DNA from: Armatimonadota bacterium
GTDB taxonomy: Bacteria > Sysuimicrobiota > Sysuimicrobiia > Sysuimicrobiales > Sysuimicrobiaceae
Length of the DNA: 64,000 nt
Direction of reading: 5' to 3'
NCBI GenBank assembly: GCA_031460175.1
Contig: JAVKGW010000004.1
Span: 123,303 to 187,302, forward strand
The position numbers and the translations under genes were made by a program. Below the pieces are notes generated by a model that was not told where the DNA came from, searched no databases, and was given only the letters and a program-made list of their open reading frames with translations. Of the stretch, positions 38,622 through 42,859 are shown in pieces; the first letter of the stretch is position 1; each line of letters begins with the position of its first letter.

Positions 38622-39044
38622 TCATTCCGCAAGGCTCGCCGCCTGGTCCAGGGCCTCCGCCCGGCGGGCGGCGTCCTCGCTGCTGATGAGCTCGATCTGA
38701 TTGCCGAAGGGGTCCCGGCAGAAGAACCGACGAACCCCCGGTTGAGGCGGCAGGTCCTGGACCGCGATCCCATTGCTCAGCAGGATCACCCGGGCCTCGT
38801 CCAGGTCGTCCACCTCGAAGCACACGTGCCGCCTCGACCGCACCAGGAGTTTCGGGTCCTCCACCCCCACGTGGACCTCACAGTTGGGCGCCAGGAACCA
38901 TACGCCCCCCCGCTCCGCAAGCCCCGGGGGCTTCGGAATCTCCCGCAGACCCAAAAGTTCCCCGTAGAACCACCGGGCCTGCGCCTCGCATCCCGGCGGG
39001 CCTGTGAGGTGTACGTGGTGTACCCGCTCGATGCGCACGGTCAC
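38622..39044 (-). CDS. VOC-fold (glyoxalase/bleomycin-resistance-type) protein between uvrB and uvrA
   Basis: A 140-residue single-chain VOC protein with two beta-alpha-beta-beta-beta repeats. The first opens with [13 protein letters not shown]; the second has [17 protein letters not shown] and ends with [15 protein letters not shown], the usual metal-site glutamate. The metal ligands expected in glyoxalases/dioxygenases are present (His of HHVHL, His of RRHVCF, Glu of QIEL), so it may be a metal-dependent enzyme acting on small electrophiles. GTG at 39044 overlaps the uvrB stop (GTGA), so its translation is coupled to UvrB. Substrate unknown. Confidence 0.78.
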
Positions 39045-41146
39045 CGTCGCCGGGAGCCCCGTCCGCGCCGGACGCCCCTGTGCCCGGGTTGGACGGGTTC
39101 TCCGAGTCCCCGTCGCAGTTCCAGGATCTGGTCCCGCAGCCTTGCGGCCCGCTCGAACTCCAGGTTGGCGGCCGCCCGCCGCATCTCCGACTCCAGCCGC
39201 CGGAGGGTGGCCTCCACCTCCTCCGGGCCCAGGAGCAGCATCCGGGCCACCTCCCACGGGAGCACCCGTCCCCGCTCCTTCACGAGCTCCACCAGCTCCT
39301 CCGCGGTGGCGGGTTCCCCACCCGGAGCGTAGGTCTCGGGTTCCTCCGAGACCTCCGGGAGGTCGAGGAGGTCCCGGATGGGCTTCTGCACGGACTGCGG
39401 GGTGATCCCGTGTTCCTCGTTGTACCGGAGCTGGATCTGGCGGCGGCGGTTGGTCTCCTCGATGGCCCGGCGCATGGACTCCGTGACCTCGTCCGCGTAG
39501 AGGATCACCCGACCGGAGACGTGCCGGGCCGCCCGTCCCATGGTCTGGATGAGGGCGGTCTCGCTGCGCAGATACCCCTCCCGGTCCGCATCCAGGATGG
39601 CCACCAGCGACACCTCGGGGAGGTCCAGCCCTTCCCGGAGGAGGTTGATGCCCACCAGCACGTCGTAGGTGCCCAGGCGCAGGTCCTTGAGGAGGCGAGC
39701 CCGCTCGATGGTGTCGATCTCCGAGTGGAGGTAGTGCACCTTGATCCCCATCTCCTGGAGGTACCCCGTGAGGTCCTCCGCCATGCGTTTGGTAAGGGTG
39801 GTGACCAGGGTGCGCTCGCCCCGCGCCACCTGGGCCCGGATCTCCGTCAGGAGGTCATCGATCTGTCCCCGGGCGGGCCGCACCTCCACGTACGGGTCCA
39901 CGAGGCCCGTAGGCCGCACGATCTGCTCCACCACGCAACGGCTGACCTCGAGCTCGAAGGGGCCCGGGGTGGCGGAGACGAACACGCACTGGTGGATGAG
40001 CTGTTCGAACTCCTCCCACCGCAGGGGACGGTTGTCGTAGGCGGAGGGGAGCCGCCACCCGAAGTCCACCAGGTTCTTCTTGCGGGCCCGGTCTCCCTCG
40101 TGCATCCCCTTGATCTGGGGGACGGTGACGTGGGACTCGTCGATGAACATCAGGTAGTCGCGGGGGAAGTAGTCCAGTAAACACCCGGGCCGCTCGCCCG
40201 GGGCCCGGCCGTCCAGGTGGCGGGAGTAGTTCTCGATTCCCGGACAGTACCCCGTCTCCCGCAACAGTTCCATGTCGTACCGGGTGCGGAACTCCAGGCG
40301 CTGGGCCTCCAGGAGCCTCCCCTGGGCGCGGAACCACGCCACCCGTTCCTGGAGCTCCTCCTCGATGCTCCGCAGGGCCCGCGCGAGGCGATCTTCCGTG
40401 GTGACCCAGTGCTTCGCGGGCCAGATGGCCACCGCCTCCTTCTCCTCCAGCACCTCGCCCGTGAGGGGATCCAGCTCCAGGAGGCGGTCCACCTCGTCGC
40501 CGAAGAGCTCGATGCGAACCGCGTGGTCCTCGTAGCTGGGGAACACCTCGATCACGTCCCCCCGCACCCGGAACCGACCCCGGGCGAAGTCCACGTCGTT
40601 CCGCTCGTACTGGATGTCCACCAGCCGCCGGAGGATCTCCTCCCGGGCGCGGCGCTCCCCCCGGCGCACCACCAGCGTCACCTCCCGGTAGTCCTCTGGC
40701 CGGCCCAGGCCGTAGATGCAGGAGACGGAAGCCACCACGATGACGTCCCGGCGCTCCATGAGGGCCTTGGTGGTGGCGTGCCGCAGCCGGTCGATCTCCT
40801 CGTTGATGCTGGCGTCCTTCGCGATGTACAGGTCCAGCTGCGGCACGTACGCCTCGGGCTGGTAGTAGTCGTAGTAGCTCACGAAGTAGCGCACCGCGTT
40901 GTGGGGGAAGAACTCCCGGAACTCACTGTAGAGCTGCGCGGCCAGGGTCTTGTTGTGGGCGATCACCAGGGTGGGCCGTTGCATGCGCTCGATCACCCGG
41001 GCCATGGTGTACGTCTTCCCGCTGCCGGTCACGCCCAGCAGGGTGGTGTACTTGTGGCCTGCCCGGAGGCTACGAACCAGCTCCTCGATGGCCTTGGGCT
41101 GGTCCCCTCGGGGCGGCAGGTCCGTGACCATGCGGAACTCGGGCAT
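39041..41146 (-). CDS. uvrB: UvrABC excinuclease helicase subunit B
   Basis: A 701-residue UvrB. It shows [12 protein letters not shown] (P-loop), the damage-verifying beta-hairpin in [30 protein letters not shown] (Walker B), [22 protein letters not shown], and a C-terminal UVR coiled coil ([19 protein letters not shown]) that docks UvrC. ATG at 41146 has GAGGGGGAT nine bases upstream. TATAAT lies at 41179-41174, suggesting its own promoter inside the 3' end of the rhodanese gene. A VOC-fold gene is coupled to its stop. Confidence 0.97.
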
Positions 41147-41173
41147 GGGCGGATCCCCCTCGCGCGACACTCC

Positions 41174-41179
41174 ATTATA
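41174..41179 (-). promoter_or_regulatory. Consensus -10 element (TATAAT) before uvrB
   Basis: The exact hexamer TATAAT on the minus strand, 28 bases before the uvrB ATG, partly formed by the TAA stop of the extended rhodanese frame. No convincing -35 is found 16-18 bases upstream. There is room for a leader of about 20 bases with the ribosome site. I see no LexA-type SOS box here. Confidence 0.5.
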
Positions 41180-41519
41180 CGGCCGGTTCAGCCGTCCGCT
41201 CCACGGGGAGTCCGGCCGCCACCCACCCCGTGATGCCCTCCGGCATGATGTACACGTTCCGGTAGCCCAGCTGCCGGGCCCGACGGGCCGCCCGGTGACA
41301 GGCCCTTCAGCGGGGGCCGGAGCAGTAAAAGACCAGCACCGCGTCCCGATCCGGCGGCAGGTCCGCCGCGGTGAACCCACCCGGGTCCAGGTGCCGGGCC
41401 CCCGGTACGTGCCCGGTCGCCCAGCGTCGGGGGTGGTTGTTGTCGAAGACGTAGAATCCCGGCGTCCCAAGACGCCGGGCCACTTCCTGCACGGTCATCC
41501 TCGGGAGGTCCTCTGCCAC
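41175..41519 (-). CDS. Rhodanese-like protein with in-frame UGA (candidate selenoprotein or nonsense allele)
   Basis: Reading through one TGA (41309-41307) gives a single-domain rhodanese of 114 residues: [23 protein letters not shown], the catalytic cysteine C66 in VFYCSGPR, then the UGA as residue 71, then [28 protein letters not shown] to a TAA. Rhodaneses of this type usually read CxxxxCxxC/S-H-x-A-A here, so the UGA stands at the second cysteine. A stable hairpin follows it. Stopping at UGA would leave 70 residues without the last two helices. GTG at 41519 has AGGAGGT seven bases upstream. Selenocysteine is attractive; a recent Cys-to-stop mutation or a base error fits equally simply. 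Confidence 0.6.
41274..41309 (-). promoter_or_regulatory. Candidate bacterial SECIS hairpin following the in-frame UGA
   Basis: Two overlapping hairpins are possible directly after the UGA. One has a 5-bp stem GGCCC/GGGCC with loop GUC (41289-41277; loop begins 23 bases after UGA). The other has a 6-bp stem CCGGGC/GCCCGG with a 10-base loop beginning GG (41295-41274; loop begins 18 bases after UGA). Bacterial SECIS elements are described as having an apical loop 16-37 bases from UGA with a G among its first two bases, and both forms comply. In DNA this rich in GC, chance hairpins are common, so this is supportive only. Confidence 0.35.
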
Positions 41520-41551
41520 GGGACGTACCTCCTGTTTGCGGTGTTTGGACC

Positions 41552-41557
41552 ATTGTA
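41552..41557 (-). promoter_or_regulatory. -10-like TACAAT before the rhodanese gene
   Basis: TACAAT on the minus strand in the 51-base gap between the era stop and the rhodanese start. The transcript would carry a leader of about 25 bases containing the AGGAGGT ribosome site. No -35 match is evident; the upstream bases are C-rich. Confidence 0.4.
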
Positions 41558-41570
41558 CGGGGGAGGGGGA

Positions 41571-42461
41571 TCAGGAGGGGTAGAGGGCACGGATCATCCG
41601 CTCGTCATCCCGCCAGTCCTCGCTCACCTTCACCCAAAGGTCCAGGTACACCCGGGTCCCCAGCAGGGCCTCGATCTCCTTTCGGGCCGCGGTCCCGATC
41701 TCCCGGATCATACGGCCGCCCTTTCCGATCAGGATGGGTTTGTGGGAAGGCTTCTCCACGTGCAGGGTGGCCCGGATGTACGTGAGGCCCTCTTCGGGTT
41801 TTTCCCGGAACTCCTCGATCTCCACCCCGACCGCGTGCGGCACCTCCTCCCGCACCCGCTCCATGGCCTTCTCCCGGATCAGTTCCGCCACCAGTCGCTG
41901 GAGGGGCTGGTCCGTGAGGTCCTCCTCCTCGAAGTACCGGGGGCCGGGAGGCAGCAGCCCCACCAGGATTTCCACGAGCTCCGGAAGCCCCTGGCCCCGC
42001 AGGGCGCTCGTGCGCACCACCCGGGCCTCGCCAAGCTCCGCCCGCACCCAGGCCTCCCGGGCCTCGATCTCCCGGGGGGAGGCCAGGTCGCACTTGTTCA
42101 GGGCCACCACCACGGGCCGACCGCTCTGCCGGGCCAGGGCCACCGCCATCTCCGTCTCCGGACCCACGGGCCGGCTGACATCCAGGACGAGGAGGACCGC
42201 GTCCGCCTCCTGCAGGGCCGCGCGGGCGGTCCGCATCATGTGCTCGCCCAGCCGGTGCTTGGGGGAGTGGACGCCCGGGGTGTCCACCAGCACCATCTGG
42301 GCATGGGGAAGGTGGACCACGCCCCGGATGGCGGTGCGGGTGGTCTGGGGGATGGGGGTGACGATGGCCACCTTGGTGCCCACCAGGGCGTTGGTGAGGG
42401 TGGATTTCCCCGCGTTGGGCGGGCCCAGGAGGGCGATGAATCCGCTCCGGAAAACGCTCAT
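41571..42461 (-). CDS. era: Ribosome-assembly GTPase Era
   Basis: A 296-residue Era. The G domain has G1 GPPNAGKST, G2 TTRTAIRG, G3 DTPGV, G4 NKCD and G5 SALRG. The C-terminal KH domain (about 200-285) has LIGKGGRMIREIG, which binds the 3' end of 16S rRNA. It supports 30S maturation at the membrane. The ATG at 42461 overlaps the cdd stop (ATGA). Together with upstream ybeY, also an rRNA-maturation gene, and dgkA/cdd this is the well-known ybeY-dgkA-cdd-era order. Confidence 0.96.
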   Translation of the reverse strand: MSVFRSGFIALLGPPNAGKSTLTNALVGTKVAIVTPIPQTTRTAIRGVVHLPHAQMVLVDTPGVHSPKHRLGEHMMRTARAALQEADAVLLVLDVSRPVGPETEMAVALARQSGRPVVVALNKCDLASPREIEAREAWVRAELGEARVVRTSALRGQGLPELVEILVGLLPPGPRYFEEEDLTDQPLQRLVAELIREKAMERVREEVPHAVGVEIEEFREKPEEGLTYIRATLHVEKPSHKPILIGKGGRMIREIGTAARKEIEALLGTRVYLDLWVKVSEDWRDDERMIRALYPS

Positions 42462-42859
42462 CCGGGCCGCCGGAAGGGCTGCGGCAGGAGCTCCTCCATG
42501 CGGTAGATCCGGAGATGCCCCCGTCCCGCGGTCACCACGAACCGCGTGCGGAACTCCAGGAGCACCTGGCGGCACGCCCCACACGGCAGGAGTTCTGTGC
42601 CCTCCGGCCCTGCCACCGCCACCGCCACCACCCGGCGCTGCCCCTCGCTCACCGCCTTCTGCACCGCCACCCGCTCCGCGCACACCGAAAGCCCGTAGGA
42701 CCCGTTCTCCACGTTGCATCCCGTGTACACGGACCCGTCCGGTGCCAGCACCGCGGCGCCCACCCGGAAGCGGGAGTAGGGGGCGTACGCACGCCGCCGG
42801 ACCGCCCGGGCGGCCCGGAGCAGCCGCTGGGCGGTGTCCTCTGGGAGTTCCCTGCGCAT
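42458..42859 (-). CDS. cdd: Cytidine deaminase
   Basis: A 133-residue homotetrameric-type cytidine deaminase for pyrimidine salvage (cytidine or deoxycytidine to uridine or deoxyuridine). It has YAPYSRFRVGAAV, NVENGSYGLSVCAERVA with zinc ligand C60 and catalytic E62, and the second zinc pair C93/C96 in PCGACRQ. It starts at ATG 42859, ten bases after the CNNM gene, and overlaps era by four bases. Confidence 0.95.
   Translation of the reverse strand: MRRELPEDTAQRLLRAARAVRRRAYAPYSRFRVGAAVLAPDGSVYTGCNVENGSYGLSVCAERVAVQKAVSEGQRRVVAVAVAGPEGTELLPCGACRQVLLEFRTRFVVTAGRGHLRIYRMEELLPQPFRRPG

Follow-up and report, generated by a model that had tools for sequence, protein, structure and literature searches.

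The window analysed here is a 64,000-nucleotide stretch of a genome assigned to Armatimonadota. On its minus strand, a short candidate selenoprotein gene with a rhodanese domain (41175–41519) lies between era (41571–42506; NCBIfam Era, 344 bits), whose TGA stop falls just upstream of it, and uvrB (39041–41146; NCBIfam UvrB, 1061 bits), which starts 28 nt past its stop codon and is a neighbor outside its function. The gene has 114 codons, from a GTG start at 41519–41517 to a TAA stop at 41177–41175, and a Shine-Dalgarno-like AGGAGG (41528–41533) is found 8 nt upstream of the GTG. Codon 66 (TGC, 41322–41324) encodes the catalytic Cys of the rhodanese loop, and codon 71 (41307–41309) is the UGA that we propose is read as selenocysteine (Sec). 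The first-pass annotation had placed an intact rhodanese frame on both sides of a TGA at these same coordinates; they are correct, for the minus strand.

The UGA is the sole in-frame stop of the rhodanese frame, which contains no frameshift, and a standard gene caller returns only 41307–41519, a product of 70 amino acids. The read-through product of 113 amino acids matches Rhodanese (PF00581) over residues 9–101, spanning the UGA (E value, 2.2e-13), and its score of 51 bits against a gathering threshold of 22.2, together with the catalytic Cys and the fold, places it within this domain family. Third-position GC is 0.86 both 5′ and 3′ of the UGA, and the neighboring genes range from 0.82 to 0.93. 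The match across the UGA and the uniform composition bear out the intact frame. The active-site loop reads C66-S-G-P-R-U71, with Sec at C+5; written from the Sec, the motif has the UxxC form (URAC). Inspection of the window protein shows no signal peptide.

The source genome (2.49 Mb, 98.9% complete) encodes the apparatus for decoding UGA as Sec. A tRNA-Sec with anticodon TCA (82 bits) is clustered with the adjacent genes selB (351 bits) and selA (570 bits). The fourth gene, selD (379 bits), is found elsewhere in the genome and itself carries a UGA, at the U-x-x-K site. The selD locus (L046, G000:C1:341633-342556) is thus a selenoprotein gene itself, with its UGA in the motif DCAGUASKL, a known Sec position. 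The first-pass annotation, which would have given way had this machinery been missing, had proposed a genome-wide search for selA, selB, selC, and selD; all four are present, and the set is complete.

TGA might also have been reassigned to a sense codon, such as Trp, throughout the source organism. Nothing was found in favor of this model. TGA is the stop codon of all six neighboring genes examined; therefore, the code has not been reassigned, and TGA still serves as an ordinary stop. Moreover, residue 71 aligns with Cys in relatives rather than with Trp. We reject genome-wide reassignment, whose probability we consider negligible.

We examined the position of the UGA in relatives of the window protein. 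A scan of named genomes returned Cys-type relatives in a Sutterella and an Actinomycetota assembly, as well as two TsoB-type proteins (Desulfobulbus and Desulfobacteraceae) whose second Sec occupies the window's column. Whole-genome searches revealed TGA at this column in G217, G350, G302, and G189. In all, TGA stands there in 21 genomes of the distant order to which G217 belongs (G217 included) and in 3 genomes of other families, and other relatives in that order carry TGC or TGT. The best relative, 55% identical to the window protein, is TGA-type. In all 32 aligned relatives, residue 66 is Cys and residue 71 is either Cys or Sec. In relatives, the coding sequence beyond the TGA is kept. The first-pass annotation had suggested checking whether residue 71 is Cys or Sec in other rhodaneses and whether the TGA recurs in other genomes with coding kept downstream; both hold, and the CxxxxC subgroup to which it had assigned the protein, with a Cys five residues past the catalytic one, is real. 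By comparison with relatives, the UGA column is a conserved Sec/Cys position. The gene thus has the features by which a selenoprotein gene is recognized: an in-frame UGA aligned with Cys, coding kept on its 3′ side, and UGA in other species. At least one TGA-type protein, that of G217, begins, by inspection, with a signal-peptide-like stretch. Within their 3-kb loci, the relatives share no conserved gene neighbors, and the neighborhood was set aside as a pointer to function. Plasmid records returned only four matches, all below 60% identity.

These comparisons also bear on whether the 70-residue product reported by the standard gene caller could be the functional protein, the UGA being a genuine stop. 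Such a product would lack the helix following the active-site loop, one strand, and the GITGW end of the rhodanese domain, and the part of the gene 3′ of the UGA is conserved in TGA-type and Cys-type relatives alike. We therefore consider a functional truncated protein very improbable.

In our tree, the window sequence falls within a clade (SH-aLRT, 93) whose other members are 21 rows of the TGA type and 10 of the Cys type; its nearest relatives are TGA-type. Sec and Cys have been exchanged repeatedly: at least seven changes are required over the tree, three of them forced by the starred branches. The presence of selA follows the codon to some extent: in the order of G217, selA was found in 20 of 21 genomes with a TGA-type gene versus 4 of 9 with a Cys-type gene, and a Fisher test that ignores shared ancestry gives p = 0.005. 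The single TGA-type genome without selA in that order is a 61% complete assembly. The relatives with Cys in place of UGA include genera without selA, and both genomes of family f253 that have a Cys-type gene lack it. Since selA is common in the order of G217 anyway, being found also in genomes without the rhodanese gene, we regard this correlation as moderate evidence only.

The history of the locus is relevant to the possibility that the gene is decaying, that is, that a recent nonsense mutation or a base error made TGC or TGT into TGA. The rhodanese gene is absent from the other genomes examined of the window's family. In the congener G001 (L077 and L083), era and uvrB are joined, with a frameshifted remnant of about 60 bp from the end of the rhodanese gene between them; therefore, the gene was most likely present at this place in the ancestor of the genus and was then lost in G001. 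Because a congener has lost it, the gene is dispensable, yet the frame of the window copy is preserved. Dispensability would suit the decay model, as would the fact that a single change suffices to turn TGC or TGT into TGA; a strike at a Cys position is not very unlikely, and the hairpin of the window, taken alone, is unremarkable (see below). However, 24 other genomes share a TGA at this column, the source genome has the complete machinery, there is neither a second stop nor a frameshift, coding bias is equal on both sides of the UGA, and the tree groups the window with TGA-type genes, its nearest relatives among them. We consider decay improbable, although less so than a functional truncated product.

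The candidate bacterial SECIS (bSECIS) element of the window is a hairpin at 41274–41295 on the minus strand (CCGGGC-GG-CC-CGUC-GG-GCCCGG), with an apical loop that starts with CGU 21 nt past the UGA and a two-base bulge in the stem. In the register common to the covarying hairpin of TGA-type relatives, its upper stem has just 4 bp. Randomization over synonymous codons gave P values of 0.22 for the stem and 0.42 for the energy, no better than random, and shuffled sequences scored equally well; we thus reject the window hairpin alone as evidence of Sec. Rfam models returned only chance matches over 41000–41700. The best bSECIS-like hairpin of most TGA-type genes opens into its apical loop 21 or 22 nt past the UGA, usually with CGUGA or CGUGC on a GCCGCC/GGCGGC stem; this hairpin is missing from the Cys-type genes. 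In the shared register, contiguous stem pairs averaged 6.7 in 27 TGA-type genes versus 0.8 in 18 Cys-type genes. For a 7-pair stem in 22 sequences, 96% of cells were paired, 5 of the 7 pairs had changed on both sides, and covariation reached 0.325 versus 0.087 in shuffled alignments (0 of 500), with all slid controls far lower. A bSECIS element is expected behind the UGA, with an early G in its apical loop. At the level of the family, the hairpin qualifies as one, with a covarying stem and a loop at +21; the window copy fits the register and is weak alone. Because that copy is not significant by itself, the weight of the hairpin comes from the relatives. Of the SECIS-like hairpin noted in the first-pass annotation, its presence stands, and it is common to and covarying in TGA-type genes; what does not stand is significance for the window copy alone.

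Because the genome has complete machinery, relatives carry UGA or Cys at one column, and the UGA-type genes share a hairpin behind that codon, codon 71 is almost certainly decoded as Sec, making this a selenoprotein gene; on these comparisons we place the probability at about 0.9 to 0.95. The candidate selenoprotein of the first-pass annotation is in this respect upheld by the machinery, by the TGA- and Cys-type relatives, and by the covarying hairpin of the family. According to the proposed model, SelB with Sec-tRNA(Sec) would decode the UGA, aided by the hairpin directly behind it, and the product would be a stand-alone cytosolic selenoprotein of 114 residues with a rhodanese fold.

An AlphaFold2 model (pLDDT, 94) has the rhodanese fold, with a strand at residues 61–65, the active-site loop at 66–72, and a helix at 73–83; Cys66 stands at the opening of the loop and Sec71 at its closing end. 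Ordinary rhodaneses from the same searches have Arg at C+5 (CASGQR, CRSGNR, and CAVGAR). The model resembles BH2092 of Bacillus halodurans (PDB 3nhv and 3o3w), with a TM-score of 0.83 over the query and an rmsd of 1.4. BH2092 is a Cys-type rhodanese with a CxxxxC loop (YCWGPACNG); it differs in having Cys instead of Sec at C+5, is 24% identical, and has no established function.

Rhodanese-like selenoproteins are already known, and reviews describe five forms: UxxS, UxxG, CxU, UxxG, and UxxxxU (PMC13188914). The best NCBIfam match of the window protein, over residues 54–110, is TsoB (NF045694; form 5, UxxxxU; PMC13188914), which is like a rhodanese/DsbD fusion. The two share Sec at the C+5 column (FYUAGLTUVRS in loci L056 and L058), but in TsoB the catalytic residue is Sec as well and the protein includes a DsbD-like membrane part, whereas the window protein has Cys66 in place of that Sec, is a single domain of 114 amino acids, and scores 51 bits against a cutoff of 805; we do not identify it as TsoB. 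LYCAU (NF041203; form 3, CxU) likewise consists of one rhodanese domain in which Sec lies close to the catalytic Cys, but its Sec is at C+2 whereas that of the window is at C+5, and the score is 48 bits against a cutoff of 115, so this identity is also rejected. GlpE/PspE-type rhodaneses share the fold and the catalytic Cys, but the loop in these single-domain proteins usually closes with Arg or with some other residue that is not Cys; the window protein scores 21 bits against the GlpE family, under its cutoff of 102. The form 1 protein WP_010941598.1, which we take to be from Geobacter sulfurreducens, has a UxxS motif, whereas the window protein has UxxC. By inspection, the UxxS of form 1 (PF00581; PMC13188914 and PMC9312934) fits the UxxS/UxxC variants of the window's clade (UMAS, UALS, and UTLS), and the Sec site of the window may be the same as that of form 1, a likeness in motif alone. 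The window protein belongs to a clade named by no NCBIfam model.

Most likely, the protein acts in the cytosol as an oxidoreductase of the rhodanese fold or as an enzyme that handles persulfides, and would use a Cys66-Sec71 pair. There is roughly an even chance that these two residues, at the ends of the loop, form a thiol/selenol redox pair. In the corresponding mechanism, Cys66 would take sulfane sulfur or become oxidized; Sec71, the more nucleophilic residue, would resolve the Cys66 persulfide or oxidized form through a transient S-Se bond, as the chemistry of Cys/Sec pairs suggests, with the release of sulfide; and a thioredoxin-like donor would reduce Sec71 again. This mechanism is proposed only from where the two residues lie and from the exchange between Sec and Cys. 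In TsoB both positions are Sec, which is consistent with two reactive residues in the window protein. Alternatively, the protein could be a selenoprotein in which Sec71 itself attacks, as a peroxidase or an arsenate/selenite-reductase-like residue, with no sulfur transfer. Sec is commonly found at redox sites, and replacing the loop-closing Arg of CxxxxR rhodaneses (rows L018, L054, and L066) by Sec removes a canonical substrate-binding residue. Yet Cys66, the catalytic residue, is strictly conserved, as is the rhodanese loop, and an attacking Sec71, while a serious competitor, seems to us the less probable use of the site than a Cys66-Sec71 pair.

Regardless of the chemistry, the locus contributes a well-supported selenoprotein, which standard gene calling would reduce to a 70-amino-acid fragment. 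Its clade has a covarying SECIS of its own and is covered by no NCBIfam model. The alternation of Sec and Cys at one loop position, with the catalytic Cys constant, offers a natural test of the contribution of Sec to a rhodanese site. A broader proposal, which we advance tentatively and consider rather unlikely, is that the CxxxxU rhodaneses with a single domain are a family in which Sec and Cys exchange, apart from the five forms listed in 2026; Sec would stand in for the loop-closing Arg and form a redox pair with the catalytic Cys. If true, CxxxxU rhodaneses would be rhodanese-fold oxidoreductases rather than sulfurtransferases, and the family would span several bacterial groups in which standard callers truncate its genes at the UGA.

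Other TGA-bearing rhodaneses were also observed. Two longer relatives from unrelated genomes (L065 and L069) each combine a CxxCH-like N-terminal part with two or more rhodanese domains, one of which bears the Sec. In the window's order, a short rhodanese with two in-frame TGAs occurs in G011, G012, and G028 (L024, 1504–1755, minus strand; L021, 1501–1761, plus strand; L043/L121). Its catalytic position carries U-T-U (FYUTUPEEGSAARAAAAL), where a Cys relative (L032) has CTC, and the selenoprotein reviews consulted list no UxU rhodanese with two Sec residues. The nearest model is LYCAU (CxU), against which two of the three loci score 67 to 71 bits, with a cutoff of 115; the L121 stretch gave no match to it. 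Of the genomes with the U-T-U rhodanese, G012 and G028 have selA.
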